From Thermoplasmata archaeon (GTDB lineage: Archaea > Thermoplasmatota > Thermoplasmata > Methanomassiliicoccales > Methanomethylophilaceae): a stretch of 64,000 bases of DNA. The DNA lies in the NCBI GenBank assembly GCA_015063285.1, contig SUST01000003.1:62001-126000 (forward strand). Reading direction: 5' to 3'. Position 1 is the first letter of the stretch; each line of letters opens with the position of its first letter. Below the pieces are notes generated by a model. It had not been told where the DNA came from. It saw nothing but the letters and a program-made list of their open reading frames with translations, and did not search any database. Shown in pieces: positions 7,608 to 37,020 of the stretch. Both the position numbers and the translations under genes were made by a program.

Positions 7608-7612
7608 ACGAG

Positions 7613-9082
7613 TTGAAAAACATGTTCAGCACATCGAAAACGGCTGCCGTAATAGCTGTTATGGCCATGCTCTTCGCTGGTTCCTTCCTCCTAACGGACG
7701 GATCGGATGCCGTCGGAGAGGACCTCAGTTCGACATACGGCGAGCCTACCAACATCAACATCGCTCCGGGATACAGGTGGACCTATACACCTGAATTCCC
7801 CAGCGACCTCACACAGTACCTCACGGTATCCCTGAAGGTAAACGACACCAACGTCGGATCCGTCAGTGGGAAGACCGTCACCGTGAACATCCCGACCAAC
7901 GCCTCTGTCGGCACGAAGTACAACGTGGTCATCCAGGCCAGCATGACTTCGCCTGTCGCTCAGACAGCCTACCAGTATGTAACGTTCACAGTGGTCAACG
8001 GATTGAACGTATCCGGAACGATAAACGACATCATCAAGGGCAGCAACATCGACTTCACCCCTACGGGAACATCCGACATGGGTGCTGTCGCTTGGGCGGT
8101 CACTTCCGGTAAGGCCCTTCCTGCCGGACTCTCTCTGAGCAACGGGAAGATCGTCGGTACACCGACGGAGATCGGTCTTCAGACTGTCTACCTGACAGCC
8201 ACCGCCAACGGCCAGTCCAAGAATCTCGAGGTCAGCTTCACCGTATACTCGAAGATAGTCGGAGGCGAGGCCCAGACAATCAGATCCTACGACAGCAACG
8301 TATCATCCGATGCCATCGTCAACGGTTCGGACATCGGAGTCACCTGGGCGGTAACGTCGGGCACGCTTCCTGCAGGATTCACTCTGAATCCAAGCACAGG
8401 AGTCATCTTCGGTAAGTCGGCTGCTGTCCAGTCTTCTACCATTACCATCACGGGAACATCCGCCCATGGACCTTCCCAATCCGCAACGAAACAGATCACT
8501 ATCCAGTCCGAGCCTGCTCTGACCCTGAGCTGCTCCGATTCCATCCTGACCTACAGGAACAACGCATCGGACGTATCCGCCACTATATCTTCCCCCGTGA
8601 CGTCGGAGAAGACCTGGGTGGTATCAGAGTTCAGCGGAGCTTCCGTCACCGACGGTGTCCTGAAGGTTAAGAACTCCACAGCTGTCGGTATGGATCAGAC
8701 CGTCACAGTGACCTGTACCACGGCCTATGGCCAGTCCAAGACCTGCAACGTCACGGTCAGTGTCGAAGATATCCTCGCGATTTCTGGGGATTCCGTCCTG
8801 AACCTCCTGGCCGGCACCGAGGGATCCACAACATCGTTCACAGTCACTGGAGGTTCCGACAACACGTTGGTAGCATCCACGGATGATGCAGGCTTGACCG
8901 TCCGCATCGCCGACGGGAAGCTCTATGCCATCGACAGCTCGGCCGAACAGGACCTAACAGCCACAGTGACCGTCACATCGGCAGCTGGCCAGACGGCTTC
9001 TGCTGAGGTCGGGATCAACGTCTATAACCAACTTGTCTTCAGCAGCGTCCCGACCGCAGGCGCGATCATCTATGCGGTGTGA
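7613..9082 (+). CDS. Secreted Ig-like repeat protein
   Basis: 489 residues beginning with a signal sequence (TAAVIAVMAMLFAGSFLLTDG). The rest consists of about five Ig-like domains of the putative-Ig (He_PIG) type, shown by motifs such as GLPAGLSLS-like ALPAGLSLSNGKIVGTPTE and LPAGFTLNPSTGVIFG. There is no C-terminal anchor. It ends LVFSSVPTAGAIIYAV, nearly the same end as the next protein. TTG at 7613 is taken as start with ATG at 7622 as alternative; neither has a strong ribosome site, so reinitiation after the stop at 7607 is possible. Confidence 0.75.
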   Translation: MKNMFSTSKTAAVIAVMAMLFAGSFLLTDGSDAVGEDLSSTYGEPTNINIAPGYRWTYTPEFPSDLTQYLTVSLKVNDTNVGSVSGKTVTVNIPTNASVGTKYNVVIQASMTSPVAQTAYQYVTFTVVNGLNVSGTINDIIKGSNIDFTPTGTSDMGAVAWAVTSGKALPAGLSLSNGKIVGTPTEIGLQTVYLTATANGQSKNLEVSFTVYSKIVGGEAQTIRSYDSNVSSDAIVNGSDIGVTWAVTSGTLPAGFTLNPSTGVIFGKSAAVQSSTITITGTSAHGPSQSATKQITIQSEPALTLSCSDSILTYRNNASDVSATISSPVTSEKTWVVSEFSGASVTDGVLKVKNSTAVGMDQTVTVTCTTAYGQSKTCNVTVSVEDILAISGDSVLNLLAGTEGSTTSFTVTGGSDNTLVASTDDAGLTVRIADGKLYAIDSSAEQDLTATVTVTSAAGQTASAEVGINVYNQLVFSSVPTAGAIIYAV

Positions 9083-9086
9083 TAGC

Positions 9087-10868
9087 ATGGACTTCAAGCA
9101 CAAGCTCATGATTGTCTTCGTTTCGGCCATCCTGCTGGCTGTTGTAACGCACATCTTCCTCGATTCGGACGATTCCGATGCGGCTGATCTCGTAGAGGAC
9201 GACCTCACCATAAATGTGGGCGAGACCAAGACTTTCTACTGGGTCGACGACCTCCATGAGGACTGGTGGGACCTGATCCAGGCGGCCGGTGGAAACTACT
9301 CATGCGGATTGGCCACAAGCACCACATGGGGGACTTGGGTCCAGTCTTCAAAATACGATCTGGAACCGAATGCCCAAGGTCTCGTACTTACTGCCAAATC
9401 CACATTGTCCCCGGGCAAATACTACATGCGTCTGGTCATCATGGACGAAGGAGGGGTGGATGAGCTGGAAGACCTCCTCTACGGTGTCACCGTAAAAGCG
9501 GCATCCACCACCAAGTACACCGTATCCTTCTCTGCGAGCCCATCTAGCTACGGTTCCGTCAGCAAGACCAGCGTTTCGGTGGCCTCGGGTACCACATACA
9601 CGGCCAGCGGTAACAAGATCACGTTCAGCGACGGTCAGTCCGTGACGGCGACTCCGTCATCCGCCACATCGTCATACACATACTCGTTCTCCAAATGGTC
9701 CTCCACATCGGGAACGATTACATCGGCAAAGTCGATAACCGCCAGCTTCACCAGATCAGCCCAGGCCACCAACTACACCTGCTATCTGTATTACGATGCC
9801 AACAACGGATCCGGTGCTCCAAGCACCCAATCCTACACCGGCACCAGTACTAGCAGCCACAGCTTCACCGTATCGTCGACCCAGCCGACCAGATCCGGAT
9901 ACACCTTCCTCGGATGGTCCACTTCGAGCTCTGCGACTTCCGCTACCTACTCAGCAGGGGATTCTATCACCGTTTCTTACAACGGATCCAAGACCCTGTA
10001 TGCGGTCTGGCAGCAGAACGTCACGAACTATCAGATCACCATCTACAAAGGAAATTGGGACAGCTTCAAGCTGCTCGGGGTTGACAACGACAAGGTCACC
10101 TCGAACAGCAAGACCTACACCATCGCTTCCGGAACCTCCATCGACGTCGATTGGTACGGGAAGGCGACGGAGAATGGTTCCGGATCCAATTACACATACA
10201 CTACCACCTACTCTTCAAGCAACTACAACATGGCCTCGTCCCTCTACGGGACGAGCCTCGGAGATTCAGTCACCGTCACCAAGAAGGCCTCGTACTATCC
10301 TGCGGTCCAGATGACCTCGGAGACCGTGTACACATACAACTACACGATAAAGTACAACGCCAACGGCGGTTCCGGAGCCCCCTCCGATACCACGACCACC
10401 GACAGCTCTTCCACTAAGACCATCCAGCTCTCTTCTAAGACACCTATCAGATCGGGATATCAGTTCCTCGGATGGTCCAAGTCGAGCAATGCTGCTTCCC
10501 CAACCTATAGCGCGGGATCCTCGTATTCCTTCGATTACGGTACCACCCAGCTGTATGCGGTCTGGAAGCAGCTCACCATAACCGTCTCCGGTACTCCCGA
10601 CCAGTACGCAATCGTAGGCAATTACTGGTCGTTCTCCCCAACGGTCAGCGTCAGCGGATGCTCCGTCTCCATTAGCGGGGCCTCCTGGCTTTCATCCACG
10701 GGAACCACGGTATCGGGAACACCCACCCAGACGGGGACCTACGACATTACCCTGACCTTCTCCAAGTCCGGATACACGTCTGCGACCAAGACCTTCACAG
10801 TCACTGTCATCTCGTCCCTCGAATTCACATCATCTCCCGCAGGAGGTGCGATCATCTATGCAATATGA
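9087..10868 (+). CDS. Secreted InlB-repeat surface protein
   Basis: 593 residues: a signal helix (LMIVFVSAILLAVVTHIFL), a globular domain to about residue 145, a divergent repeat (SFSASPSSYGSVSKTSVSV), two InlB-type B-repeats ending YAVWQQ and YAVWKQ (about 240-315 and 425-500), and a final Ig-like domain ending SLEFTSSPAGGAIIYAI. Ser/Thr/Tyr content is very high. No C-terminal anchor is present. An in-frame ATG at 9072 inside the previous gene is an alternative start, matching how the next gene begins. It is likely exported and held on the particle or cell by partners with membrane helices. Confidence 0.75.
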   Translation: MDFKHKLMIVFVSAILLAVVTHIFLDSDDSDAADLVEDDLTINVGETKTFYWVDDLHEDWWDLIQAAGGNYSCGLATSTTWGTWVQSSKYDLEPNAQGLVLTAKSTLSPGKYYMRLVIMDEGGVDELEDLLYGVTVKAASTTKYTVSFSASPSSYGSVSKTSVSVASGTTYTASGNKITFSDGQSVTATPSSATSSYTYSFSKWSSTSGTITSAKSITASFTRSAQATNYTCYLYYDANNGSGAPSTQSYTGTSTSSHSFTVSSTQPTRSGYTFLGWSTSSSATSATYSAGDSITVSYNGSKTLYAVWQQNVTNYQITIYKGNWDSFKLLGVDNDKVTSNSKTYTIASGTSIDVDWYGKATENGSGSNYTYTTTYSSSNYNMASSLYGTSLGDSVTVTKKASYYPAVQMTSETVYTYNYTIKYNANGGSGAPSDTTTTDSSSTKTIQLSSKTPIRSGYQFLGWSKSSNAASPTYSAGSSYSFDYGTTQLYAVWKQLTITVSGTPDQYAIVGNYWSFSPTVSVSGCSVSISGASWLSSTGTTVSGTPTQTGTYDITLTFSKSGYTSATKTFTVTVISSLEFTSSPAGGAIIYAI

Positions 10869-12189
10869 TATCAGAACAACAGCGATAATCATAGCCGCCG
10901 TCTTCATGGCGGTGCCCTTCGCTCTAAGCGAATCAGATGCCGATCAGGCATACGACAAGGACTACGGGGAGTTCTACTCCTACACCCTGCAGTTCGTATT
11001 CGACGGAGCCGAAGCCCAGACCATCGATTGGGATTTCGGCGACGGCTCCGAGCACAGCACGGAATGGAACCCCAGGCACACATATGCCGCAAAGGGAACA
11101 TACTACGTAACCCAAACAACCAGCAACCCCAAGGGAACGACCGTTGAAGTCTACAAGGTGCAGATCATGGGATTCCCTGTGATCACCTTCGAGAGCAACG
11201 GAGGCTCCGCTGTCCCTCAGATAGAGCAGACAGCATACAACGTCACCGCTTCGAAGCCCATCGATCCCATCAAAGCGGATAGCACATTCGATGGTTGGTT
11301 CACCGATCAGGAGTTCACCAACCCCATGGATTGGGATGCTGGCGTCAATAGATCCATGACCCTCTACGCCAAATGGACCCCGGTCCAAACCCCTATCCAG
11401 ACCTTCACCGTGACCTTCGACAGCAATGGGGGTTCCCCCGTCCAGCAGCAGACCGTCCAGTCCGGATCGGTCGCCACGGTTCCAGTCAAGCCCACGAAGG
11501 CGGGATTTGCCTTCTCTGAATGGAGGTTGAACGGCCAGCCCTATGATTTCGGAACATCCGTGACAGGCAACATCGTCCTCGTTGCAACATGGACAGAGAA
11601 CACACAGCCCGTGATCTCCCACAATATCTCCTTTGATGTCGACGGCGGATCCATTCCCATGCAGTCCAGGATGGTCTCCAATGGAACATCGCTGACCCTC
11701 CCGTCCTATGATGGGACCAGGACAGGATTCACATTCGGCGGCTGGACCTACAGCAACGTCACCTACCAGCCGGGCAACACTGTTGTCGTGACAGGCGACA
11801 TGACCTTCAAGGCCATCTGGACCTCGAATCTCCCTGTTCCGACCGACGAGGATGTCACCGTCTCCTTCGATGTGGCCGGAGGATCCTCCTCGGTATCCTC
11901 CGTGACAGTGAAATCCGGGACTTCCGTAACGCTTCCCGATTACAGCGGAAGCAGGGAAGGCCACAGTTTCGGAGGATGGGCCATCGGAATGCTGACCTAC
12001 CAGCCCGGTTCCTCGGTCACCGTATCAGGCGACATCACGGCCAAGGCCATCTGGATCCAGGATTCCGAAGGACAGGATAAGGAGAAAGAAGATTCCTTCC
12101 TGACCGACCCCGTGGTCATCGTGATCGTCATCGCGTTGATCATAGGTATCGTAGTCCTGGTGGCAAGGGCCTGTTCGAGGAGGTTCTGA
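10858..12189 (+). CDS. PKD and InlB-repeat surface protein with C-terminal anchor
   Basis: 443 residues. The start at 10858 is fixed by AGGAGGTG at 10841-10848, and the gene overlaps the preceding one by 11 bp. A signal sequence (TTAIIIAAVFMAVPFALS) leads to a PKD domain (IDWDFGDGSEHSTEW, about residues 35-105). Four InlB-type B-repeats follow, each with the FGGW / YQPG / KAIW style ending. A C-terminal helix (VVIVIVIALIIGIVVLVA) and a short basic end anchor it. With the 4943-7213 protein it is one of two anchored spike or adhesin candidates of the module. Confidence 0.8.
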   Translation: MQYDIRTTAIIIAAVFMAVPFALSESDADQAYDKDYGEFYSYTLQFVFDGAEAQTIDWDFGDGSEHSTEWNPRHTYAAKGTYYVTQTTSNPKGTTVEVYKVQIMGFPVITFESNGGSAVPQIEQTAYNVTASKPIDPIKADSTFDGWFTDQEFTNPMDWDAGVNRSMTLYAKWTPVQTPIQTFTVTFDSNGGSPVQQQTVQSGSVATVPVKPTKAGFAFSEWRLNGQPYDFGTSVTGNIVLVATWTENTQPVISHNISFDVDGGSIPMQSRMVSNGTSLTLPSYDGTRTGFTFGGWTYSNVTYQPGNTVVVTGDMTFKAIWTSNLPVPTDEDVTVSFDVAGGSSSVSSVTVKSGTSVTLPDYSGSREGHSFGGWAIGMLTYQPGSSVTVSGDITAKAIWIQDSEGQDKEKEDSFLTDPVVIVIVIALIIGIVVLVARACSRRF

Positions 12190-15178: not shown

Positions 15179-16708
15179 ATGAGATCCATCGAAAGCTATG
15201 ATTCCAGGGCAGAACAGCTCAGGCTGAACTCCATCGAGGCCCATTTCACTCAGGCATACAGGGCAGGCCTCGCAGAGCAGGCCGCTCTTGCTTCTCATCC
15301 GGTAGTGAAATATGTCAAGACCCTCCCCGTGGAGGATGCAACGTATCCTGCCATAGAGTACCTTATAGTTGCGAAGCAGATAGGAAGGCCCGTCCAGGAG
15401 GTGTATTCGCTCGTCAGGAGGGGGATAACCTCGTTCAAGGACAGACAGGGCAATACGGTCTTTTTCAGGAGGCAGCATCATAACTACATCCACTGGACCA
15501 TGCCCGGCAGGGATCTGGACCGTCCGAAGGTCAAGGGATGCGGCATCATCCATGCGAAGACCGGAGGTCTCGTCATCAACGCATGTCCTAACGATCCGGA
15601 ACATTTCGCCAAAGCGAAGAGAAGGCATTGCTGGAGCATGCACTGTCCTGAGTGCATGAACGATACCGCCCTTAGGCAGGGTGTGGAATTGGAGCTCAGG
15701 CTCAAGGCTTACAAGATGCTGATGCGTAAGCAGGGTATCGACGTAGGGAGGATAGGGCATTGGGTGATCTCCCCTCCACAGGATCTGATGAAATCCTGGA
15801 TGCAGACCAAGGAGGATTTCTCCAAGGTGGTGAAGTACATCGAGCTGTCCCTCCAGGATATCGGAGCTTTATCAGGAGAAACGATATTCCACCCCTGGAG
15901 GATGAACAACGGAAAATGGGAATTATCACCGCATTTCCATAATATCTGCTATGGATGGCTTGACACCGACAAGTTCCTGAAGGAGAATCCAGGATGGATA
16001 ATCAAGAAGATCCATTCCCACGAGGGTGTCCACAGCATCAGGCATACTGCTGCGTACCTGTACACCCACATGGGCCTCGGACTTGCCGATAAGGATCCAG
16101 AGGACGTCGATTGGACCGAGGACATCCTGAACTACATGATCCCCGGCATCAAATCTCCCAAGGCCAGGTACTCGGAGCAGGACTACGAGGAGCAGTTCTT
16201 CGGAAAGGGCCGCATGTCCGGGGACATCGACATCGACTGGGAGGACTGGACACAGCAAAGGCTGATGGCCAAGCTCAGAGCAAGACAGTGGGGAGGCATC
16301 TCCAAGAACAAGATCAGACTCATAGGTTATGATAGACAATATAAGATCAGGGTCTGCAAGGAATGCGGCGAGATCATCAGGACTTACGAAGGGGATGACG
16401 ATACCATCGGTTCTTACGTAAGATACATCCAGGACAATCCGGTCCTGTGCTTGGCGCACCAGTTCGATCTGGCCCAATCGTCGTACCTGAGATACAAGGA
16501 CGACCTCAGATCCGCAAAGCTCACAATTACGGACTTTGCCAAGTTCACACCATTCGCAGTTTCATCCCTGGAGTTCATGCCCCAGAACAAGGATCTCGTC
16601 ATGGGTGGCCCGTTCGCTGAACCCGATGAGTACTTCCTCAGCAGGCAGAGGGCAGCATACGGTGAGGATTCAATCGATCAGACTGAATCATCTTCTTTCC
16701 CTGCATGA
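15179..16708 (+). CDS. rep: HUH rolling-circle replication initiator
   Basis: 509 residues. The HUH metal-binding motif is at residues 251-255 (PHFHN) and the catalytic-tyrosine motif follows at about 290-297 (AAYLYTHM, candidates Y293 and Y295). Motif 1 may be WVISPP near residue 197. Cysteine/histidine pairs at about 138-160 (HCWSMHCPEC) and 395-430 (CKECGE, CLAH) look like zinc sites, as in archaeal plasmid and viral Reps. Such enzymes nick one strand at a hairpin origin, stay bound to the 5' end and start rolling-circle synthesis. Hairpins lie just upstream. It is the last gene of the GC-rich block. Confidence 0.75.
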   Translation: MRSIESYDSRAEQLRLNSIEAHFTQAYRAGLAEQAALASHPVVKYVKTLPVEDATYPAIEYLIVAKQIGRPVQEVYSLVRRGITSFKDRQGNTVFFRRQHHNYIHWTMPGRDLDRPKVKGCGIIHAKTGGLVINACPNDPEHFAKAKRRHCWSMHCPECMNDTALRQGVELELRLKAYKMLMRKQGIDVGRIGHWVISPPQDLMKSWMQTKEDFSKVVKYIELSLQDIGALSGETIFHPWRMNNGKWELSPHFHNICYGWLDTDKFLKENPGWIIKKIHSHEGVHSIRHTAAYLYTHMGLGLADKDPEDVDWTEDILNYMIPGIKSPKARYSEQDYEEQFFGKGRMSGDIDIDWEDWTQQRLMAKLRARQWGGISKNKIRLIGYDRQYKIRVCKECGEIIRTYEGDDDTIGSYVRYIQDNPVLCLAHQFDLAQSSYLRYKDDLRSAKLTITDFAKFTPFAVSSLEFMPQNKDLVMGGPFAEPDEYFLSRQRAAYGEDSIDQTESSSFPA

Positions 16709-16879
16709 AGCATCAGCGGACGCGCTCTTATTCTATCAATTAACAGTTATGTCGAGGTTTTCTAATGTATTGTGCATCATCTCTTCTTCTTTTATTTCAT
16801 CCATTTTTAGTTTGCCAATGGTCTAAACTGATTGTTCTTGTCGATATTTTATTATTCAATCATCTTCTTACTTGTTAGT

Positions 16880-17485
16880 ATGAAGGCTTGTCCTCATTGT
16901 AATGCTCAGCTGAAAGATGATTTACTTTTTTGTACCAAATGCGGTACTAAATTATCTTCAGAACCACTTACTACGCAGGACAACACCAAAGATCCTTTTC
17001 AAGAGATGAAGTGCCCTTCTTGTGAAATCATCTTTACAGATGGCTCGTTATTTTGTAATAAATGTGGAACTAAACTTGAAGTTGTTCCTAGACAGCAGCC
17101 GGATCCTGTTCTTTTGTATAAACAATGTCCTGGTTGTGAGAAAAAGTTCGAAGATGAGTCTCTCTTTTGTAATATGTGTGGGATAAAACTCGTGGAAGTG
17201 TATGACGGAGATTTGGTTTCCGATTCTAATATTATGTATTGTCCGGCTTGTAAAACCGAATACTCTGATGATTCTTTATTCTGCACCGTTTGTGGAAAGA
17301 GGTTGGAAGTTTTTCAAAAGAAATCAAGTGATTCTGATCAATCGTCTGACCTCTCTCAAGGTAACTTTGATAATTATTCATATCATTGTAGGGTTTGTGG
17401 TTGTTCGATCACTGAAGGCCAGGAGCGTTGTAGCCGGTGTAACACGTTCCTTTATCCGACAAATATTGTTAAGATTAAGATTTAA
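16880..17485 (+). CDS. Five-zinc-ribbon protein
   Basis: 201 residues, start ATG 16880 (MKACPHCNAQL). Five CxxC...CxxCG zinc ribbons in a row: CPHC/CTKCG, CPSC/CNKCG, CPGC/CNMCG, CPAC/CTVCG and CRVCG/CSRC, with acidic linkers. No enzyme domain and no membrane segment. Such arrays usually bind proteins or nucleic acid. The gene opens an AT-rich block with a base composition clearly different from the Rep module, so this part of the element has another origin. The next gene starts 14 bp downstream. Confidence 0.75.
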   Translation: MKACPHCNAQLKDDLLFCTKCGTKLSSEPLTTQDNTKDPFQEMKCPSCEIIFTDGSLFCNKCGTKLEVVPRQQPDPVLLYKQCPGCEKKFEDESLFCNMCGIKLVEVYDGDLVSDSNIMYCPACKTEYSDDSLFCTVCGKRLEVFQKKSSDSDQSSDLSQGNFDNYSYHCRVCGCSITEGQERCSRCNTFLYPTNIVKIKI

Positions 17486-17499
17486 TCTTCGGTGATGAC

Positions 17500-19350
17500 A
17501 TGGTTTTCTGTAAGAAGTGTGGTACCGAGATCGGTAATGGTGTAAAGTATTGTCCTAAATGCGGTACTATGGCCTCAGCCGATTCCGTTGTTGATATGAG
17601 TTCTTCAGTTTCTGAGACGAAAATTGATGCTCAAGTATTGCCTCCAGAACCTGTCGTTACTACTATAGCTTCAATATCTACATCCAATAAGAAGACAAAT
17701 CGCCGGACGATTCTGGTTGTTATCTCTGTAGTTGCTGTTATTGCCATTGTTGCAGTATTATTCTTGATGCCGACAAAATATGAAATCGATTTATCTACCA
17801 ATGGATCTGGTATGGTATATGGTTCGGGCTCTTATGAGTCTGGCGACATGATCACCATCAGAGCTGCTGGTACCAATGGCATGGAGTTTTACAAGTGGAG
17901 TGATGGTAACACCTCTGCAAGTCGTACGATATCCGTTGATGGCGATAAGAGTTTAGTTGCTTATTTTGCTTATTTTTATGATATATCTGTGAAGTCTAAT
18001 TATTCGGACGGAGGGAGCATATCCGGTGGAGGGCATATTAAGCAGGGAGATTCAGTAACAATCAGAGCTGAACCCTCTTATGGTTATTATTTTTCTCACT
18101 GGATGAAGGATGGTTCTAGAGTTTCAAGTAATCCGTCTTACACATTTACGGCTAATTCTGATGCTACCTACGTAGCTGTTTTCGAGTTGCGGTCATTTAC
18201 CATCCAAGCTTACTCGAGTAACTCAGGATGGGGCGAGTGCTCGGGCGGGGGTACATATTTATATAAGTCATCTGTGACTCTATATGCTAATTCATATTCT
18301 GGCTATGAATTTCTGGGATGGTATGATGGATCATCCTATCTTGGCAATCTACGTACCTACACCTTCAACGTGGAATCGGATGTAACCTTTACTGCCAAGT
18401 TCGGCATTATTCATGATGCTTCATTTTCTTTCGAAGCCTCTGCTTCTCTTGCACCTGTCACCCTGAGTATCAATTCGAAATATACGGTAGAATACAGCAA
18501 TAGGTATGTTACCTTCATGGATGCTATGACCGGATCGACTCTCCTTACGTATAATGGTAGTTCCAATTCATCTCTTTCCACCAGCATCTCGTCAGGTACA
18601 GCGGTGAAAGTGGTCCAGAAGATAACCTATACAGACGGCTATACGGCATCATATACGGACACATATGTAGTCAATGAAAATGTTACTCATAAGTATTCAT
18701 GGAAATATAACGTGGACAAATGGTATTCTTTTTTCACTGATTTCTTCAGTTTGAACAATTCATCGGATTCATTTACGTGGGACCTCAGTTTCAAGTGGTA
18801 TTACAAATACTACTCTGATCCCATACCTCGCAATATCAACGGAGCTGCTGATAGGATCGATGACTTTGTAACCTCTGATGATTCCTGGATCAAGAGTTTG
18901 GCCAAATATTTGAATAATCAATCTTCATCGATGTCTGATATCGAGCGTGTCAATTATGTCCTGAAGTTCGTGCAGAGTTTCGAATATCAGTACGATAAGG
19001 ACGGCAAGAATGTCCAGGATTATTGGAAATATCCTGCTGAGATCCTCTGGGAACAGAAGGGCGATTGTGAGGATCATGCCATCCTTTTTGCAACCCTAAT
19101 GGAAGCCATGGGTTATGATGCTGTGCTCTATTACGTCTACTGTTATGACTCTTCTGGTAATTTTACCGCTGCCCATCTTGCTACAGGTGTCGCGGTTTCC
19201 GGTGCATCTGGAACTAGTACTACATTCCAGGGCAAGACCTATTACTATTGTGAGGCTACCTCAGATGCAGGCTCGAGAATCCATAATTGGGCGAATGTAG
19301 GTTATATTCCAACAGGTTATGTCATTCAAAGGACATATCAGGTAAGTTGA
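17500..19350 (+). CDS. Zinc ribbon, membrane anchor, divergent InlB repeats, transglutaminase-like domain
   Basis: 616 residues. A zinc ribbon (CKKCGTEIGNGVKYCPKCG, residues 4-22) lies inside the cell. After a linker comes one membrane helix (ILVVISVVAVIAIVAVLFLM, about 69-88). Three divergent InlB-type repeats (about 90-300, e.g. YEFLGWYDG) and a further beta domain follow. The C-terminal domain (about 450-610) is transglutaminase-like: GDCEDHA holds the cysteine, AAHLATG the histidine, and YYYCEAT the acidic position, where Glu replaces the usual Asp. It would act on proteins outside the membrane (protease or cross-linker), with the ribbon as cytoplasmic contact. No similar module occurs in the GC-rich block. 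Confidence 0.75.
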   Translation: MVFCKKCGTEIGNGVKYCPKCGTMASADSVVDMSSSVSETKIDAQVLPPEPVVTTIASISTSNKKTNRRTILVVISVVAVIAIVAVLFLMPTKYEIDLSTNGSGMVYGSGSYESGDMITIRAAGTNGMEFYKWSDGNTSASRTISVDGDKSLVAYFAYFYDISVKSNYSDGGSISGGGHIKQGDSVTIRAEPSYGYYFSHWMKDGSRVSSNPSYTFTANSDATYVAVFELRSFTIQAYSSNSGWGECSGGGTYLYKSSVTLYANSYSGYEFLGWYDGSSYLGNLRTYTFNVESDVTFTAKFGIIHDASFSFEASASLAPVTLSINSKYTVEYSNRYVTFMDAMTGSTLLTYNGSSNSSLSTSISSGTAVKVVQKITYTDGYTASYTDTYVVNENVTHKYSWKYNVDKWYSFFTDFFSLNNSSDSFTWDLSFKWYYKYYSDPIPRNINGAADRIDDFVTSDDSWIKSLAKYLNNQSSSMSDIERVNYVLKFVQSFEYQYDKDGKNVQDYWKYPAEILWEQKGDCEDHAILFATLMEAMGYDAVLYYVYCYDSSGNFTAAHLATGVAVSGASGTSTTFQGKTYYYCEATSDAGSRIHNWANVGYIPTGYVIQRTYQVS

Positions 19351-19420
19351 GGTAAACGCAGTATCTATTGAGGTCGTTCTCGAATGTCTTTGTTAAATAC
19401 TGCGTTTACTATCTGACCTC

Positions 19421-20224
19421 ATGGCCTTCTGTGGTAGATGTGGCACAAAGAACTCGGATGAGGATCTGTTCTGTAGACAATGTGGTTATTCACTTAAGGA
19501 TGAGGACGAATCGTCGTCCGATTATACTAGAGATTATTCCACTCATCATTATGAATCTCCTAGATCTGATGATATAAACAATTCCTATCAAAGAGAGAAT
19601 CCTCTAGGAGCTCAGCAAGATAAAGAACACCAATTCTATGATGCAGTGAAAGAAAGAATGTCTACAGGATCATATTCTACCAAGGATTCCAGGGGGGACA
19701 CGATCATTGTCTCTAAAGTTACCAAAGAGGATCTTGATCGGAAACGTTATATGTCTTATCTTTTCCTGGCCATTGGCCTTATCGCTATGGCTTATGTCGG
19801 ATTCATCCACAAGTTCCACATCTATATCTCTGGAGATGGCAAAAGCATCGATATCACAGAAGCTACGTTGTATGAACTAATATCCAAAGGGGTAACAGGT
19901 TTGGGGGATGTTATTCCTAACGAATTGTTGCTCATCATGTTCTTCGGATCGTTCCTTTTGGTCCTGTGTGGCTTTGCTCATTATGTACCTTCAGCCTTGG
20001 GTAGTCTTGTATTCTTTTTTATGGGGATGCTGATGACTGTTATGACCTATCCGATTAATCTATATATAGTCGAAGTTGCTCCTAAAATTGCTCTAATTGA
20101 TCCAGAGACTGGGCCCATGTCTTTGTTGATCTATTTCTTGTTCTTCCTTGTTCCTGCTATCATTATCTCGATATCTGTTGAATTACTCTCTAAGGCTTCT
20201 AAGCCTATTAGGAATGTTGTATGA
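19421..20224 (+). CDS. Zinc-ribbon protein with four membrane helices
   Basis: 267 residues. An N-terminal zinc ribbon (CGRCGTKNSDEDLFCRQCG), a polar linker of about 85 residues, then four membrane helices (about 111-128, 166-187, 193-215 and 230-252). Same cytosolic ribbon-to-membrane design as its neighbours. Likely part of one membrane-associated set; function unknown. Confidence 0.7.
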   Translation: MAFCGRCGTKNSDEDLFCRQCGYSLKDEDESSSDYTRDYSTHHYESPRSDDINNSYQRENPLGAQQDKEHQFYDAVKERMSTGSYSTKDSRGDTIIVSKVTKEDLDRKRYMSYLFLAIGLIAMAYVGFIHKFHIYISGDGKSIDITEATLYELISKGVTGLGDVIPNELLLIMFFGSFLLVLCGFAHYVPSALGSLVFFFMGMLMTVMTYPINLYIVEVAPKIALIDPETGPMSLLIYFLFFLVPAIIISISVELLSKASKPIRNVV

Positions 20225-20269
20225 GTTCTTAGTTAGTTATGAATTATTCAGGTGATTATCGGTGATAGG

Positions 20270-20878
20270 ATGAATATAATCTTCTGCAGAGAATGTGGGA
20301 ATCCGATTAAAAATGATGAGTCGTTGGATCAGATTTATTGTAACAAATGTGGCGCGAAGAATGATGCTAAGTTTAGCGCCCTTAGATGCAAATTGTGTGG
20401 CAGATCATTTGGAGATGCGGCATATATCTTCTGCCCTCTGTGTGGTACCACTCTAATTGCCAATCCGGTTATCCTGGATTCGTGGGATTACAACACTTCT
20501 AATGCTATATGCTCTTGTGGGAATCATATCCATTTTGACGAAGGGGTGTTCAGAATAGTTTGTGATAGCTGTGGCAAAAGTAACTCCAGAACACACTATC
20601 CTTCACATATTTTTGAAGTAGTTATAACCCAATCAGCTATTGACTTCTCCAGATCGTTCAGGATTCTTCTTAAAAAGTCGCGTTCTTTCGATATCACGGA
20701 AGCGGGCAGATATCAATTCATCCTGACCAACGCCATCTATGATCTCTCTATAGATATAGGTGGCATGAATTGCTATGACAATCGTTTCACCACTTTTGAG
20801 AATAAGCGTTTGGAAGTGAAGTACAATAATTCCAACAATACGATCGTAACAGAACTTCAGACGCTGTACTTGTATTGA
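20270..20878 (+). CDS. Three-zinc-ribbon protein with beta-rich C-terminus
   Basis: 202 residues; ATG at 20270 preceded by GGTGATAGG. Three CxxC pairs-of-pairs: FCRECG/YCNKCG, CKLCG/FCPLCG and CSCG/CDSCG, in the first 115 residues. The remainder (about 115-202) is predicted beta-rich with no motif that I recognise. It has no membrane segment. A 266-bp stretch without a gene follows, in which I see only AT-rich sequence. Confidence 0.7.
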   Translation: MNIIFCRECGNPIKNDESLDQIYCNKCGAKNDAKFSALRCKLCGRSFGDAAYIFCPLCGTTLIANPVILDSWDYNTSNAICSCGNHIHFDEGVFRIVCDSCGKSNSRTHYPSHIFEVVITQSAIDFSRSFRILLKKSRSFDITEAGRYQFILTNAIYDLSIDIGGMNCYDNRFTTFENKRLEVKYNNSNNTIVTELQTLYLY

Positions 20879-21144
20879 TTGGTCAAATACTGATCGTCCG
20901 TGTCTCTGATTATGATTAGTCAATGCAATCATCGAGTAGTTTTTAATGATATAACCTGGGTTTACCTGATAGAACAATCTCGTATGTACTTGGATTATGT
21001 GCCTATTTGACTTCGACACAGACTGAATTTGCTATTTCTCTATTTGGGAGTAATAGAAGATAGAATTGGTTGATATTGGATATATTTTCCTATTCTGTTG
21101 GAAGCATTATTAATGTTGTTATTTGATTCGGCTTCAGTGGTTTG

Positions 21145-22071
21145 ATGGCATTATTTAAGACCAAAGAGGAAAGAGCCTCCATCAAATTTGATAAGGCTTC
21201 CGATTTAATTGCGCAGAAGCAATACGGCGATGCTTTGAATAACCTGAACAAAGTCATCAGTTTGGGTCAAGCGACTCCGGAAGTTAATGTTCTTAAGCGT
21301 ATGTTAGAGATGCGTACTAATTACAGGGATCCTAATGAACTGTCTAAATCTATCGGTGTATTCAGTAACTATCCTGGCCTTATGGTCAAGTATGGTGTAT
21401 ATGATGTTTCTGTGGATGCCCTTCTCAACGAATGCAATCTCCGTATCAAAGGACAGCAGGCTCTGAATAATAGTGATGTGTCTCAGGAAGCAGGCTTACA
21501 GCTTATCAGTACAGCAGCCGAATTTGCGGCTTATGACCGTACATTCATCCTTGAGGAGATATTCGATGAGAAGAAGGTTACAGCTCGCGATTATTCTAAC
21601 ATGATGTATGCTCTTGGATATGAAAGATTATCTGAGGCCATTAAGTGGGAAGATCCAAAGAAGGCTGCTGAATTCCAACAGCAGGCGTTGATATACAACA
21701 ACGAACGTCATAATCAGGAAGCGATCTCCAAGAATCAGGAATTCATCCGCGGTGCATCGATGACCGTCCATTGCTGGTTCTGCGGACGTGAAGTTTCTGG
21801 TGAGAACATACATTTCGTTCCTATGAGTAGTATGCTCACAGACCCCATTCTCAGGCAGGCAGACCCCAATAAGCCGTTGGCGACCAATAGTACGAAGTCT
21901 ATATTCGCTTGCCGTGCCTGCTATTCCGCGATCGATACCGTCGGTAAGACCTATTTTGAATTGGGAAAGAAGTACACCGATGCTGAGGTCACGAAGGCTT
22001 ATAATCAACTGATGTCGGAGATCAATGATTTGCAGAGACAGATCAATGGTCTAAGGGCCGGTATGCATTGA
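21145..22071 (+). CDS. TPR-like protein with zinc-binding C-terminal domain
   Basis: 308 residues. The first 60 residues resemble a tetratricopeptide pair (FDKASDLIAQKQYGDALNNLNKV uses the A/G/Y/A pattern). The middle is helical. A zinc site is formed by CWFCG (about residue 208) and CRAC (about 254), followed by a C-terminal coiled coil (NQLMSEINDLQRQINGLR). First gene of a four-gene set with the next three (gaps of 10 bp and overlaps). A scaffold role is inferred from domains only. Confidence 0.7.
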   Translation: MALFKTKEERASIKFDKASDLIAQKQYGDALNNLNKVISLGQATPEVNVLKRMLEMRTNYRDPNELSKSIGVFSNYPGLMVKYGVYDVSVDALLNECNLRIKGQQALNNSDVSQEAGLQLISTAAEFAAYDRTFILEEIFDEKKVTARDYSNMMYALGYERLSEAIKWEDPKKAAEFQQQALIYNNERHNQEAISKNQEFIRGASMTVHCWFCGREVSGENIHFVPMSSMLTDPILRQADPNKPLATNSTKSIFACRACYSAIDTVGKTYFELGKKYTDAEVTKAYNQLMSEINDLQRQINGLRAGMH

Positions 22072-22081
22072 TGTGATGATC

Positions 22082-23626
22082 ATGGATGAAGTCATAGAAT
22101 TAAGATGTAAATCATGCGGAGGGCCGCTCTCCGGTGAGGGAGATATGCTGAAATGTCTTTCTTGCGGTAGATCGCAGCTTAAGGTTGATTCTCAGAAATA
22201 TATCGAGCAGGCAAAGATGGAGATGATGGCCTGGATCTCTAAGACCATACCGACAGGTATGTCGCTGAATCAGACAGAGACCATGGATCCTATCGCTCGC
22301 CATAATATCTTCATGTCCTCGATCAAACCTTCTCTGGAAGCTACATTTAGAGAATACAAGTTCGGATTCATCAGCACCCTTTCCAATCAATTGCTTGTCA
22401 TGCCTTTCAAAACTCTCAAAGGACTGCCATCAAGATACAGTCCTAAAGAGCTCTTCGAGTTCGATGCAAAGGTCAAATCAATCAAGGCATTGGCAGTCGA
22501 TGATGACAGTAAAAGACTAGTGAATCAGGCTTCAGGTGTTTCCACATCCTATGCGATGACCGTCAATAGTGTCGAATTGATGGCTCAGGATCAGCTAGAT
22601 CGCTATCAGTTCATGACAAACAACTACAAAGCGTCAGCTGAAGCCATCGCTGATCTGCAGGGGTATGAGCTCGTCAAAAAGAGATTCGATGCTCTGAGCA
22701 AAGCTTGCGATGGTATCAACGATATCATGTCAGGCAATTCTCAGGCGGCGATTATGAAACTTGAGGATGCAGCGTATAATCTGGATTCGGTTGAGAAAGA
22801 TGCACGTTCCAACATCGATTATTTATCGATGGCTCTGGCTGTTTCCAGAGAGGCCATCGTCTGCAGGACCACTCTTCGCATCGCAAAGGCGTTGTCTGTC
22901 AGTTCTGGTCTTGATACGCAGCAGGTCTTCAAGGTCATAAGCGATCTGATGACCGAAGTTACTCTTGAGAACCAAATGCAGCATGGCAATCTCGCTTCTT
23001 TCAGCAGGATAGAGAGGACTTCTGAGATACTCAATCTTCTTTCAGAAGTCATTTCTGCGAAGAGCGGTGACGGTTCTCTCAAGGTCGCATCCGGTTCCGG
23101 TTCAGTTCTTTTCCCATTGTGGGTTGTTGAAATCAAGTACAGTTTTGTCACCGGATCACTGTTCAAGAAGCATTCAGTGCAAGTGTCTGAGCTCATATTC
23201 GTTTCTGCTGAATTCCCGACTTCTTCGTCCACTGTCCAGAATTCCAGACAGGCGATCACCGATATTTTCAAAGCAATGCCCGAGACCACTTTCATGCAGA
23301 GGGTAAAGGGCGATGAGACATCTATCACAATGGGCAGTCAGGTGCGCTATGTTTATGACGATGCACACCATACTAGGTTAAACGCCAGTACGAAGGTAGT
23401 CGCACCCACTTCTACTAAGTATGATGTAGAGCTCATAGTCAATAACTATCTGGATGCCTGCAGATCCACTCATCCGAAGTTACAGATGGGGCGGGCTACT
23501 ATCCATGGTCTAATCTACGTTCCAGCAGAACCTAACTCTAATGGATACACACTCATGGTCAATCTGGGCAATATCGCTCCAGCTAATCTGGGCGATAAAG
23601 AAACGATTTCAAAATTGATCCTGTGA
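22082..23626 (+). CDS. Zinc-ribbon protein, YdjG-like
   Basis: 514 residues. The N-terminal ribbon (RCKSCGGPL...CLSCGRS, residues 8-29) is followed by a long helical region (about 40-300) and a beta-containing C-terminal domain. The make-up and the neighbouring SPFH-zinc-ribbon and membrane genes resemble the Bacillus YdjG-YdjH-YdjI set, which works with PspA in envelope stress; I base this on gene order and domain style, not on an alignment. Start at ATG 22082; ATG 22076 and GTG 22073 are possible. Confidence 0.65.
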   Translation: MDEVIELRCKSCGGPLSGEGDMLKCLSCGRSQLKVDSQKYIEQAKMEMMAWISKTIPTGMSLNQTETMDPIARHNIFMSSIKPSLEATFREYKFGFISTLSNQLLVMPFKTLKGLPSRYSPKELFEFDAKVKSIKALAVDDDSKRLVNQASGVSTSYAMTVNSVELMAQDQLDRYQFMTNNYKASAEAIADLQGYELVKKRFDALSKACDGINDIMSGNSQAAIMKLEDAAYNLDSVEKDARSNIDYLSMALAVSREAIVCRTTLRIAKALSVSSGLDTQQVFKVISDLMTEVTLENQMQHGNLASFSRIERTSEILNLLSEVISAKSGDGSLKVASGSGSVLFPLWVVEIKYSFVTGSLFKKHSVQVSELIFVSAEFPTSSSTVQNSRQAITDIFKAMPETTFMQRVKGDETSITMGSQVRYVYDDAHHTRLNASTKVVAPTSTKYDVELIVNNYLDACRSTHPKLQMGRATIHGLIYVPAEPNSNGYTLMVNLGNIAPANLGDKETISKLIL

Positions 23627-23636
23627 GGTGAATCGA

Positions 23637-24812
23637 ATGGGATTGTTCAAGAACAAGAATGAATCGGCATATGACAACAAGAAGACATTCCTGAGTGTCA
23701 TCAAGAGCGATAACAACGCCGGATCATACGGCGCGATGTCAGCTGATGATGTCTTCTGGAAGGTGCCTTTCGAGGACTTCAACATTCATTCCAAACTCAT
23801 CGTAGGCGAGAGCGAAGACGCTCTTTTCTATAAGAACGGAGTGGTCCTAGAGGTCTTCTCGGGAGGAGAGTATGATCTGGAGACTAACAACTATCCTTTC
23901 CTGAGCCGTATTAGGAACATGCTGTCTAACGGCATCAGCATCTATAATGCAAGGGTATATTACATCAACAAAGCCCATAAATTGGATAACAGATGGGGCA
24001 CCGACAGTCCGATCCAGGTTGTCGATAAGAAGTACAACATCGCCACATCGGTCCAGGCAAGAGGCGCTTATACCCTGCAAATAGTGGATTCTAAGAAGTT
24101 CTTCCTGAAGTTCGTCGGCCTCAATCAGAACAGACTGACAGCAACAGATGTCATCAGCGAGTTCAGGGCTCCTGTATCGCAGAAGATAAAGAGTCTCCTC
24201 GGTAACGTCATCAAGTCCATGGATGATGAGATTATCGGTATTTGCTCAAGACAGGATGAAGTAGCTGAAATGGTCAAACCCATGTTGGATCCAATCTTCG
24301 ACGAGTACGGAATACGTCTTGTCAACTTCTACGTTGAGGCGCTCGATGTTGCCAACGATGAATCCAGAAGGGTGCTCGAGGAGGCTCGTACCAAGAGGGC
24401 CACCACTCAGATCGAGGCTGAAGGTGAGAAGGCCAGACTGGAGACTCTGGGCATCACATGGGCTCAGAGCGAGAGTGCAAGCATCATGCACGATGCCGCT
24501 CAGAACGAGGGATCAGGAATGGTCGGCGCAGGTGTCGGTATCGGATTTGGTCTTGCCGCTGGTTCCGGCATGTACAACATGGCTGCGAGCACCATGACGC
24601 CTTTGGATGGTAGCGGTCAGCAACAGCAGGCTCAGCAACAACAGCCGCAGAATCCCGGTACGGTGAAATGTTCATGCGGTGCAGTTCTTCCAGCTGGCAG
24701 CAAGTTCTGTTCCCAATGCGGGCAGAAGCTCAATCTATTCTGTCCTAACTGCGGTAACAAACTATTGCCTGGAGTCAAATTCTGTTCAGAATGCGGGAGT
24801 AAGATAGAATGA
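23637..24812 (+). CDS. SPFH-domain protein with two C-terminal zinc ribbons (YdjI-like)
   Basis: 391 residues; ATG at 23637 preceded by GAGGTGA. Residues about 25-290 form an SPFH (band-7/virion-core-like) domain ending in a helical stretch (ESRRVLEEARTKRATTQIEA). A Gly/Ala-rich and Gln-rich linker (QQQQAQQQQPQ) leads to two zinc ribbons (CSCG/CSQCG, CPNCG/CSECG). Proteins of this build assemble on membranes as rings or scaffolds; in bacteria the YdjI type recruits partners to damaged membrane. The stop overlaps the next ATG, so it is coupled with the four-helix membrane protein. The role in this element is inferred. Confidence 0.75.
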   Translation: MGLFKNKNESAYDNKKTFLSVIKSDNNAGSYGAMSADDVFWKVPFEDFNIHSKLIVGESEDALFYKNGVVLEVFSGGEYDLETNNYPFLSRIRNMLSNGISIYNARVYYINKAHKLDNRWGTDSPIQVVDKKYNIATSVQARGAYTLQIVDSKKFFLKFVGLNQNRLTATDVISEFRAPVSQKIKSLLGNVIKSMDDEIIGICSRQDEVAEMVKPMLDPIFDEYGIRLVNFYVEALDVANDESRRVLEEARTKRATTQIEAEGEKARLETLGITWAQSESASIMHDAAQNEGSGMVGAGVGIGFGLAAGSGMYNMAASTMTPLDGSGQQQQAQQQQPQNPGTVKCSCGAVLPAGSKFCSQCGQKLNLFCPNCGNKLLPGVKFCSECGSKIE

Positions 24813-25486
24813 AAGCGAATTACCTTGCAGTCCTTATTGAACTTGTCATAATGGCTGTCGTCGATGTCGTTATGTATATCTTTATCAAGGACTGGACAAA
24901 CACAATGATCTGTTCGATTGTGATGATAGATTTGGCCTTTGTTCTCAATATGGTCTCGTTCCTTACGACCCCTAATCACAAGAACAGCTATATCTTCCAG
25001 TCATCCACATCGATCTTCGCATCTTATCTGATTATCATAGAGATCGCATTGATGCTTGTAGGCCTCTTCGTCAAGGAGATTCCTGAGCCGTACATCATGG
25101 TCATCGAGATCGTCGTGTTCATCATATTCACGATCCTCTTCATCATGAATGTCGTGGCCAACAATCATACTGCCCAGACTGCTGATGTCAACGATGCCGG
25201 TGTCGCAAGGATTTCTGACGTCACCTCATGTCTCTATCAGGCTTTCAATGCGGCGGAAGGCAATGAGATGAAATCAGTCATCGAGAAGGCATATGATAAA
25301 TCGAGATCTTTAACTGGATTCAGAGACGAACTCGCAGATTACGATCAGGAACTGATGGATGTCGCGGAGGCCATTTCTGCTCAATCCAAGACCGGTGATG
25401 TGGACGCTGTCCAGCAGCTCTACGCCAAATTCTGTAATATCGCTGATGAAAGGGCTCAGAAGGCTCGCAAACTCCAATCCAGTTGA
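24809..25486 (+). CDS. Four-helix membrane protein of the SPFH set
   Basis: 225 residues, ATGA overlap with the SPFH gene. Four membrane helices in the first 115 residues (from LAVLIELVIMAVVDVVMYIFI to VIEIVVFIIFTILFIMNVVA), then a cytosolic helical domain of about 105 residues. The likely membrane anchor for the SPFH partner, equivalent by position to YdjH. Transcription ends at a hairpin just downstream. Confidence 0.7.
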   Translation: MKANYLAVLIELVIMAVVDVVMYIFIKDWTNTMICSIVMIDLAFVLNMVSFLTTPNHKNSYIFQSSTSIFASYLIIIEIALMLVGLFVKEIPEPYIMVIEIVVFIIFTILFIMNVVANNHTAQTADVNDAGVARISDVTSCLYQAFNAAEGNEMKSVIEKAYDKSRSLTGFRDELADYDQELMDVAEAISAQSKTGDVDAVQQLYAKFCNIADERAQKARKLQSS

Positions 25487-25528: not shown

Positions 25529-26209
25529 TCAAACTTCGATCATGGCCTTCTTCAGCCATTCCTTGGCGGCCTCCCTTCCAGGGCAAGTCGCCAAGAGATC
25601 TTCTACCTCCTTCTTCCTCTCGACGAAATCAAGTCCGAAATCCAGGGATATATTGGCGATCTCGTGCAGTAGGCAGTAGTCGAGGACCTCTTCCGGAACG
25701 TTGTCGTTCAGGAGTTTCCTGTTCATGATCACGACCCTCATCAGGCATGAGCTCTGTCCTGCCTTTGATTCGGATTCCTCCTTCGACCAGAACAGCTTCA
25801 GTCCGTTGATCTCTTCGACGAGGCCAGCATCAACGATTCTGTGGTAGGCATCCCAGAGTTTCTCATCCTCGTTTTCATCAGAGACAGCGAGGTTGCGGCT
25901 CCTTTCGATGTACTTCTCCTGGTTGAGATCTCTGAACTCCTGGGAGGTCAGCCATTCCTTGGCGCATTCCGGGTAATCCAGTTCCTCTTCCGCAAGGATC
26001 CTCGAGAAGATCGTCTTCGCGATCCCTTTCACAACATCCTCGGGTGCCTCCTTGAGGTAGTCTGAGACGCTGAAGTTCGCGAAGTCGCATGTGCGAATCC
26101 ATTTCACTTTGAGGTCTCTGAATGGCGAGAATTCCGCTTCCACGTTCTCAAATCCGAAATCGTTTCCGACCTTCTGGAAGGTCAAGTTCAGTTCTTCCGA
26201 TGTTACCAT
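25529..26209 (-). CDS. Hypothetical protein
   Basis: 226 residues from the ATG at 26209 (an in-frame TTG at 26218 is possible). Mostly helical and acidic. A conserved-looking stretch LDYCLLHEIANISLDFG near residue 185 recalls the HExxH helix of YgjP/SprT-like metallopeptidases, but the second histidine is absent, so peptidase activity is doubtful. It sits between the zinc-ribbon block and the restriction-modification cassette and is transcribed toward the former. Confidence 0.65.
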   Translation of the reverse strand: MVTSEELNLTFQKVGNDFGFENVEAEFSPFRDLKVKWIRTCDFANFSVSDYLKEAPEDVVKGIAKTIFSRILAEEELDYPECAKEWLTSQEFRDLNQEKYIERSRNLAVSDENEDEKLWDAYHRIVDAGLVEEINGLKLFWSKEESESKAGQSSCLMRVVIMNRKLLNDNVPEEVLDYCLLHEIANISLDFGLDFVERKKEVEDLLATCPGREAAKEWLKKAMIEV

Positions 26210-26436
26210 CTTCTTCAACTCCTTTTTTCTTAGGGGCCTCTTGAACCCCGGAACGGAGCTGGAGCGAGGGGATTATGCGTATGCGGTGAGTAAATAACAT
26301 CGTTCAAACAGGAAAGGCGAGCCGCAATACACAATATTGCCCCTCGCGATAAGTGTAGGGGTGAAAGGGCCCGAAAAGGAGATGTCTTTAATTCTGTTCC
26401 GATAAGTATAAAGCAGCTTTGTTTCATCACGGTCTT

Positions 26437-27420
26437 ATGGTAAAACCCCGTGTTGCAAGTCTTTTTGCCGGTATCGGTGGCATATGTCTTGGCTTCAAAG
26501 AAGCCGGTGCCGATATAATATATGCCAATGAGATAGATTCCTATGCTTGCCAGACATACCGTCATAATTTCAATGGGGCTCCTTATCTCGTTCAGGATGA
26601 TGTATATAACCAGCATCTTTCAGATTTGGACAATGTTGACATTATTGCAGCCGGATTTCCATGTCAGGCGTTTTCGATAGCTGGTTACCGTAAGGGCTTT
26701 GCAGATGACCGCGGAGTATTGTACACGCAGGTTGACAGACTTATTAATGAGTGTCATCCGAAAGCTGTTTTCTTAGAGAATGTGAAGAATTTGATGTCTC
26801 ATGACAACGGACGTACGTATAGTGTAATTAAAGCCGCTCTTTAGGATTCAGGATATTGCGTAACTCAGGCCGTTCTTAACACAATGGAATACGGCAATAT
26901 TCCTCAGAACAGAGAGCGCATTTATGTTGTTGCTTTCAGAAAGTCTCCAGACGGCTCATGTCTTGCTAAAGACTGTTTTAGTTTTCCCGAACCTATTCGT
27001 CTGACTGTTTCCGTTCATGATATCATCGATTATCACGATAAGAAAGCCGATTCTTTCTATTATAGTAAAGATCATAAGTATTATTCTCAGCTGGATCGGG
27101 AGATGACAAATCCGGATACTATTTATCAATGGCGCCGTGTCTATGTGCGTGAGAACAAAAGTAATGTCTGTCCTACGCTGACTGCCAACATGGGCACGGG
27201 AGGTCATAATGTCCCCCTTATCAGAGATGATTATGGTATTAGGAAGCTCACTCCTGAGGAGTGCCTTAAGTTCCAAGGATTCCCTGACAGTTTCTCTTTC
27301 CCTGATATTGCCAAGTCCCATATGTACAAGCAGGCGGGTAATTCTGTTTCCGTTCCTGTCATTAAGAGGATAGCAGAGAATATGATTTTCGCTATGCGCA
27401 ATTCGGGGATGATAGGTTGA
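26437..27420 (+). CDS. dcm: DNA (cytosine-5) methyltransferase with in-frame TAG
   Basis: Methylates cytosine at carbon 5 in a specific DNA site and protects it from the nuclease encoded next. Motif I is SLFAGIGG (about 8-15). Motif IV is GFPCQAFS with the catalytic Cys76. Motif VI is FLENV, motif VIII QNRERIYVV, and motif X GNSV near the C-terminus. TAG at 26842-26844 (codon 136) falls between AAL and DSGYCV, where relatives have an ordinary residue (commonly Glu or Lys) before GY. Both sides carry required motifs, so translation must pass the TAG for an active enzyme. 327 residues, normal length. The stop overlaps the TTG start of the nuclease. Confidence 0.85.
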
Positions 27421-28523
27421 CCAGTGTTTTCTGTAAGGCTTCGAAGGAGGAAAGGCATTCTTACATTCAGTATCTCCGGGCGATGTCTTCTATTAGCAGT
27501 CTTTTCTCTGAAAGCAATACTCCGTATATCGATTATCGTATCGTGGAGAATCTCTTTTGCAGATGTTTTAATGCAGAGAATCTTTCCAGATCATGCATTG
27601 CGATTGATGCACGTATCGGTCCGATTGGAGTGGGCATCAAAACTTTCGTAGACACCCCTTTTCAGAAGATTGCTGAATTCGACAAGAAACGGGAATACAC
27701 AGATACTGGAGATGTAATTGAGGATGCTTGCAGAGTATCCGAGCTCAGAAATGAGAGACTCGATTTCTCCAAAGATGCTTATGCGATAGATGATTTCATC
27801 TATCATTATGTCGTCCGCAGGCCCAATCGTCTTTCAATCCATGAATGTTCCATGGATTATATCGATCTTGATTCGATCAAGGTTACAAAGCAGACTGGCA
27901 AAGGATTTGACTTTACTGATGGAAAGAACAGGTTCAGATTCAGCAGATCTAAGAGTACAATTCTTGAATCTTTTAGTCTTGAGCACTCTCTTTATGATTT
28001 CGGAGTGGATTTCGTCGAGGATCCGATGAGGGCTATCGTCGAGGTTTATGAGGGGGAGTTTACTATAGGGGAGCCATCTTCACAGTCTATCGTTCAGAAA
28101 CCGACTATAGTTCTCCCGCTGTTCTCTACGAGAGGAGGTGTTCACGTCCCAGAAAAGAGCGGACTCAACCAATGGAATGCAGGAGGACGCAGAAGAGATT
28201 TTGATGAGATTTACATTCCTTATCAGAAGGAGGATCGCGATCGTATACCAGGCTTCTTCCCAGCTAGGGACACTCCGTTTGATCTGGAGCTGCCCAGCGG
28301 GGAGACTATCAGTGCCAAGGTCTGTCAGGATCAGGGAAAGGCCATAATGTCAAATCCCAACAAGGAACTCGGAAGATGGCTTCTCCGGGACGTGCTTCAT
28401 CTGGATGAGGGGCAGTTAGTCACGATGGATATGCTTGACAGCCTGGGCGTTAATGCAGTGATGTTCACTAAAGAAGATTCGGGTAAGTATTCGATAGATT
28501 TCACCAACATCGACTACGATTAA
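27417..28523 (+). CDS. Type II restriction endonuclease with B3-like C-terminal domain
   Basis: 368 residues from a TTG start overlapping the methyltransferase stop (TTGA). The C-terminal 150 residues (GLNQWNAGGRRRDFDEIYIP, FFPARDTPFDLELPSG, NPNKELGRWLLRDVL) match the B3-like recognition domain of the NgoFVII family of restriction enzymes. The N-terminal part has IDARIGPIGVGIKTF, likely the nuclease core. With the methyltransferase and Vsr this forms a complete cassette. The recognition site cannot be read from sequence. The 3' end overlaps the convergent vsr gene by 23 bp. Confidence 0.75.
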   Translation: MTSVFCKASKEERHSYIQYLRAMSSISSLFSESNTPYIDYRIVENLFCRCFNAENLSRSCIAIDARIGPIGVGIKTFVDTPFQKIAEFDKKREYTDTGDVIEDACRVSELRNERLDFSKDAYAIDDFIYHYVVRRPNRLSIHECSMDYIDLDSIKVTKQTGKGFDFTDGKNRFRFSRSKSTILESFSLEHSLYDFGVDFVEDPMRAIVEVYEGEFTIGEPSSQSIVQKPTIVLPLFSTRGGVHVPEKSGLNQWNAGGRRRDFDEIYIPYQKEDRDRIPGFFPARDTPFDLELPSGETISAKVCQDQGKAIMSNPNKELGRWLLRDVLHLDEGQLVTMDMLDSLGVNAVMFTKEDSGKYSIDFTNIDYD

Positions 28524-37004: not shown

Positions 37005-37020
37005 AGTGGACAAGGCGAGA
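37005..37020. other. attR core within the tRNA-Ala 3' end
   Basis: AGTGGACAAGGCGAGA, identical to 2782-2797. Integration rebuilds the whole tRNA on this side. Confidence 0.8.

Follow-up and report, generated by a model that had tools for sequence, protein, structure and literature searches.

SPFH proteins are considered organisers of membranes in every domain of life, but to our knowledge what they do in archaea has hardly been tested. In Bacillus subtilis, the SPFH protein YdjI carries a zinc-finger motif but no membrane anchor and depends on YdjG and YdjH for its place at the membrane (PMC8581546). SPFH proteins of other archaea have been tied to ESCRT-type loci, and the Meth_adaptin ESCRT loci of Methanobacteriales combine an SPFH–coiled coil–zinc ribbon protein with a neighbouring zinc-ribbon protein that has an extra domain (PMC10936438). 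Here we describe eight genes, A–H, that resemble both arrangements in part and that lie in a window of 64,000 nucleotides (the whole stretch of DNA analysed), which belongs to contig C3 of an archaeal genome of 1.79 Mb. The window genes have their nearest relatives in Methanomethylophilaceae and in other Thermoplasmata.

Layout and domain content of genes A–H

A–H are eight adjoining plus-strand ORFs with narrow gaps, spanning positions 16880–25486. Gene A (16880–17485) encodes five zinc ribbons with 10 CxxC motifs (Pfam DZR/Zn_Ribbon_1), B (17500–19350) a Zn_Ribbon_1 domain, one transmembrane (TM) stretch, InlB B-repeats and a Transglut_core/DUF553 domain (Pfam, hydropathy), C (19421–20224) a Zn_Ribbon_1 domain and four TM stretches (Pfam, hydropathy) and D (20252–20878) a zinc-ribbon protein of the DZR type (Pfam). 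Gene E (21142–22071, likely start ATG 21145) has a TPR-like domain, a C4 zinc site and a C-terminal coiled coil, and F (22073–23626, likely start ATG 22082) an N-terminal zinc ribbon, a helical core and a C-terminal alpha/beta part. The SPFH protein is encoded by G (23628–24812, likely start ATG 23637; Band_7_1, 9.8e-32), which ends in a double zinc ribbon (Zn_Ribbon_1) and is free of TM stretches, while H (24809–25486), with four TM stretches and a C-terminal helical part, is its putative membrane anchor. The hydropathy scan counts TM stretches in B (one), C (four) and H (four), leaving out a borderline stretch in D that overlaps the ribbon of this protein. An earlier note on this DNA, made from its letters alone, had described an eight-gene row with seven zinc proteins, three membrane proteins, a transglutaminase-like B and an SPFH protein G, and the ORF, Pfam, CxxC and hydropathy scans agree with it throughout.

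The CxxC scan finds zinc ribbons or C4 sites in seven of the eight genes, A–G, whereas of the remaining 42 long ORFs in the window one has them. No zinc-ribbon match above the Pfam cut-off was obtained for E or F; both were counted as zinc proteins because their cysteines are invariant in alignments of 47 relatives of E (C210/C213/C256/C259) and 44 relatives of F (C9/C12/C25/C28). As nine of the 30 Zn_Ribbon_1 matches of the whole genome (E ≤ 0.1) fall in A, B, C and G, the clustering of zinc ribbons exceeds chance. E, F, G and H are tightly coupled by 1-bp gaps and a 4-bp overlap. D and E are separated by 264 bp with a TATA-like box (GGATATATTTT) about 60 bp upstream of E, for which reason A–D and E–H probably form two transcription units.

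Compared with the PspA-YdjGHI system of B. subtilis, G resembles YdjI in its zinc-finger C-terminus and its lack of TM stretches (PMC8581546, PMC9239133), and in both cases the SPFH gene adjoins one or more membrane-protein genes in an operon that includes a zinc-ribbon protein. However, F has a ribbon but, unlike YdjG, no TM stretch, E has no counterpart in PspA-YdjGHI, and the genome yielded no match to the PspA family (PF04012), for which nine of 14 control genomes were positive. The likeness to YdjGHI that had been proposed for E–H is thus supported as far as a soluble SPFH–zinc-ribbon protein beside a membrane protein goes; a direct relation finds no support, as the search for a PspA gene was negative. 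The likeness to the Meth_adaptin ESCRT loci is similarly partial, as Pfam detected no Vps4, ESCRT-III or adaptin-appendage match and no AAA domain in A–H.

Relatives of E–H and of A–D

Chromosomes of the family carry the gene order E-F-X1-X2-G, where X1 has four TM stretches and X2 is a coiled-coil protein. This operon is single-copy, has housekeeping genes as neighbours and occurs in roughly every second genome of the order; F was found in 72 of the 147 genomes, or 34 of the 74 of good quality. E is paired with F in all chromosomal relatives examined, within the family an SPFH–zinc-ribbon gene follows downstream, and the pairing is kept in more distant Thermoplasmatota, at times without a recognisable G. 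F of the window is homologous over its full length, keeps all four cysteines of the ribbon and is directly preceded by E as in the chromosomal relatives. Both versions have full-length E, F and G homologues in the same order, with the invariant zinc cysteines and with SPFH and C-terminal ribbons, whereas in the chromosomal operon alone F and G are separated by X1 and X2; in the window, G directly follows F and is itself followed by H. F and G of the element are about 36% and 23% identical to their chromosomal counterparts. Given its like place and shape, H was considered as a fusion of X1 and X2, but profile comparison lends this no support (hhalign probabilities of about 1% and 0.2%, respectively). 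X2 was also considered as a PspA protein and rejected for want of a Pfam match.

The order F-G-H recurs at chromosomal sites in two further genomes, G079 (locus L058) and G092 (locus L073), where A–D is missing and the surroundings are not an obvious defence island. A maximum-likelihood tree of F groups the copies from the window, G079 and G092 in one clade (100/99 support), with L073 as a long branch, and places them outside the clade of the family's chromosomal copies; on this basis, recent duplication of the host operon was rejected as the origin of E–H. Judged by gene order and phylogeny, E–H is a divergent mobile branch of the Thermoplasmatota chromosomal operon. E–H of G092 has as neighbours a twin radical-SAM (SPASM-like) protein and a 91-residue protein (L073, 3752–6330) that resemble a pair for peptide maturation. 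Another SPFH protein, distinct from G and ending in several zinc ribbons, is encoded on contig C22 of the genome of the window (L051, 10485–11810).

Because the chromosomal relatives of E–H have housekeeping neighbours, the main rival to a protective role is envelope upkeep: E–H would be a maintenance module without antiviral function that replaces or supplements the chromosomal operon and is kept for the benefit of the host. We consider this rather unlikely. It agrees with the wide, single-copy occurrence of the chromosomal operon and with the fact that our genome and that of another species, G081, hold the element copy only, but G079 and G092 carry both versions, seven members of the genus have neither, and the two versions are deeply diverged, so that simple replacement fails to explain the distribution.

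The structural model of E (pLDDT 94.5) combines a TPR-like domain with a coiled coil, its best fold match being MamA (E 0.008). F was modelled with confidence (pLDDT 88.6) but gave no clear fold match: Foldseek listed Bro1 domains with a probability of up to 0.54 but an E-value of 4, and the F profile matches Gid8 chains at 0.003; we take neither as grounds to call F a Bro1-type ESCRT adaptor or a Gid8 relative.

Turning to A–D, B-type matches are present in 129 of the 147 genomes of the order. The domain of B is a transglutaminase-like cysteine peptidase with conserved Cys/His/Glu, and its closest relatives, 41–50% identical over most of B, keep the TM stretch, the repeats and the Cys/His/Glu residues. 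InlB-type (Listeria-Bacteroides) repeats are frequent in gut Methanomassiliicoccales (PMC7883539), and by these shared features B is assigned to a common chromosomal surface family of this order. From the close members of the family, which have no N-terminal ribbon, B differs by its zinc-ribbon head; a distant paralogue in the same genome (L055) retains ribbon, TM stretch and domain but has lost the cysteine. The domain of B also partially matches the LapG cysteine protease (30.8 bits versus a family cut-off of 320 bits), although B is membrane-anchored with repeats and LapG a free periplasmic enzyme. The membrane part of C has relatives of 28% identity in two genomes (G077, G078), and a third (G097) holds a ribbon-plus-four-TM relative. 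For D, no full-length relative was found outside the two genomes carrying this element. The claim that the first four genes are without equivalent therefore stands clearly for D alone; it fails for B and in part for C. Some of the closest relatives of B adjoin an AbiLi-type ATPase pair in L223 (2395–6541) and Cas1/Cas2 with DUF1016-like nucleases in L228 (3952–12650), individual cases that serve as a lead to a possible link between its surface family and defence loci.

The earlier note regarded the eight genes as a single network, and named as observations against this that the genes be unlinked in relatives or that relatives of the first four be ordinary chromosomal proteins only. Both were found in part, since E–H occurs unlinked from A–D and B-type proteins are ordinary chromosomal ones in the 129 genomes. 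With E–H standing without A–D in L058 and L073 and missing from all 14 sibling-element loci described below, we rejected the single network: A–H is two separable units. It is even a serious possibility, if one we would not call probable, that A–D is a surface-protein unit that merely lies beside E–H, in which B trims or cross-links surface proteins or adhesins in the manner of LapG and only the insertion site is shared. The gap with its TATA-like box, the existence of E–H without A–D, and the common surface family and partial LapG match of B all agree with such a unit. Zinc sites in seven of eight neighbours as opposed to one of 42 other ORFs argue against it, as does the ribbon head, which is unique to B among close relatives and suggests a partner shared on the inner face.

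The integrated element and its cargo slot

A–H sits in a transferable element integrated at a tRNA-Ala gene. The element (2782–37021) is bounded by 16-bp direct repeats (AGTGGACAAGGCGAGA) at 2782 and 37005, the right one of which is the 3′ end of tRNA-Ala (37006–37081, minus strand), and encodes a tyrosine-type integrase (35959–36894, plus strand; PHROG integrase match 1e-26). Positions 10749–37096 are 99.985% identical in G081, whose contig begins within the element so that the comparison covers all but its left end, and the G081 chromosome outside the element is 82–92% identical over part of its length; both genomes resemble metagenome assemblies, with a small residual risk of misbinning. 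Repeats, integrase and near-identical copy together bear out the mobile-element carriage that had been suspected. The G+C content at 16001–23000 is about 40–44%, versus 54–57% in the left part of the element, consistent with foreign cargo.

Directly upstream of A–H lies the gene of a Rep-like protein (15179–16708, plus strand), a possible HUH initiator with an HFH motif recognised by eye and no Pfam match. Its relatives occur in 34 of the 147 genomes and in six copies in our genome (contigs C2, C3, C4, C6 and C7, including loci L257–L260). The six copies indicate that such integrated elements form a family in which cargo is exchangeable and the Rep-like gene belongs to the backbone. Fourteen loci around Rep-like relatives were taken as sibling elements. 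Most of them have surface proteins, a membrane protein and an ATPase in common, and most also keep at least one of the genes u25529, u32433 and u29464. The first of these (25529–26218, minus strand) is the backbone gene bounding the cargo slot in sibling elements, with relatives of 37–71% identity in six sibling loci and a partial match in L267. The backbone also includes four long surface proteins at 4943–12189, at least two with InlB-type repeats, which are common to the siblings and up to 95% identical over long stretches (L258). A second cargo block consists of a type II DNA methyltransferase and a type II restriction enzyme (26419–28523, plus strand). The methyltransferase frame (26419–27420) is broken solely by a single in-frame TAG, which may be a pyrrolysine codon and not a gene break, as one contig of the genome ends in a PylS fragment (C13:1–255).

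The region downstream of the Rep-like gene gave PADLOC matches in all eight sibling loci scanned: type I restriction-modification (R-M) in L257, AbiLi in L258, a weaker match to CARF in L259, DUF262/Orf5 with type I R-M in L260, type III R-M with an HKD+Snf2 protein in L264, type II and IIG systems in L265, MzaC with Vsr in L266 and a type II methyltransferase with candidate systems in L267. Ten chromosomal control proteins gave no match, a small and lenient control as they were chosen as plain housekeeping genes, and in four further sibling loci, read by eye only, no defence genes were seen. The order Rep–A-H–u25529–R-M–u29464 of the window mirrors Rep–DUF262–u25529–R-M–u29464 of L260, where DUF262 and type I R-M stand in place of A–H and type II R-M. 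A–H thus fills a variable, defence-rich slot behind the Rep-like gene, beside an R-M pair. The scanned genes themselves match no known defence family: of A, B and E–H, which were compared with PADLOC-DB, only A gave a weak match (12.7 bits), and a direct precedent for SPFH proteins in phage defence was not found in the literature.

That A–H serves the spread of the element itself, for example by letting particles or vesicles bud through the membrane of the host, seems very improbable. The element does encode several InlB-repeat surface proteins and a weakly FtsK/Zot-like ATPase, and a link between SPFH proteins and ESCRT-type loci is known from other archaea (PMC10936438), but the 14 siblings keep the backbone without A–H, save for one weak match to the repeats of B, and A–H has no ESCRT-III or AAA match (Pfam). 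In addition, F and D have no relatives in IMG/VR, and F has none among phage records. The suggestion that the cluster helps particles leave has gained no support. In further searches for viral relatives of the element, the Rep-like protein had none in IMG/VR or among phage records, the ATPase had none in IMG/VR, and B returned a single weak match, to its repeats.

A proposed role at the host membrane

Our tentative preference, held with somewhat less than even confidence, is that A–H is accessory cargo whose H-anchored scaffold protects or closes the host membrane, in defence or superinfection exclusion. The slot position favours this role: the defence genes found at the corresponding place of sibling elements lend positional support to the guarding of the membrane or exclusion of viruses that the earlier note had suggested. 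The data show the mobility, homology, domain make-up and position of the cluster, whereas its assembly, contacts and function are inferred: G would form a scaffold at the inner face of the membrane and H would anchor it there, since G lacks TM stretches and H has four, as with YdjI and its partners. E, with its TPR and coiled coil, and F, with its zinc ribbon and helical core, may act as adaptors, and the zinc ribbons may serve as contact surfaces. A–D would contribute B, a surface transglutaminase-like cysteine peptidase that might be joined to this scaffold by its inner zinc-ribbon head. A bolder and quite unlikely version is that E–H, with or without A–D, represents an undescribed archaeal membrane-based antiviral or exclusion system, in which an SPFH scaffold moved from a resident envelope operon to mobile elements, with the ribbons as assembly tags and B as a tethered effector in this element.

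The new point is the position of A–H in the slot. A mobile SPFH set in the region where sister elements keep restriction and abortive-infection genes leads us to propose a membrane scaffold as defence or exclusion cargo. Of greater interest is the element family with its cargo region: integrated elements of one family recur in gut methanogens, and the region that holds their cargo can be searched for additional systems.
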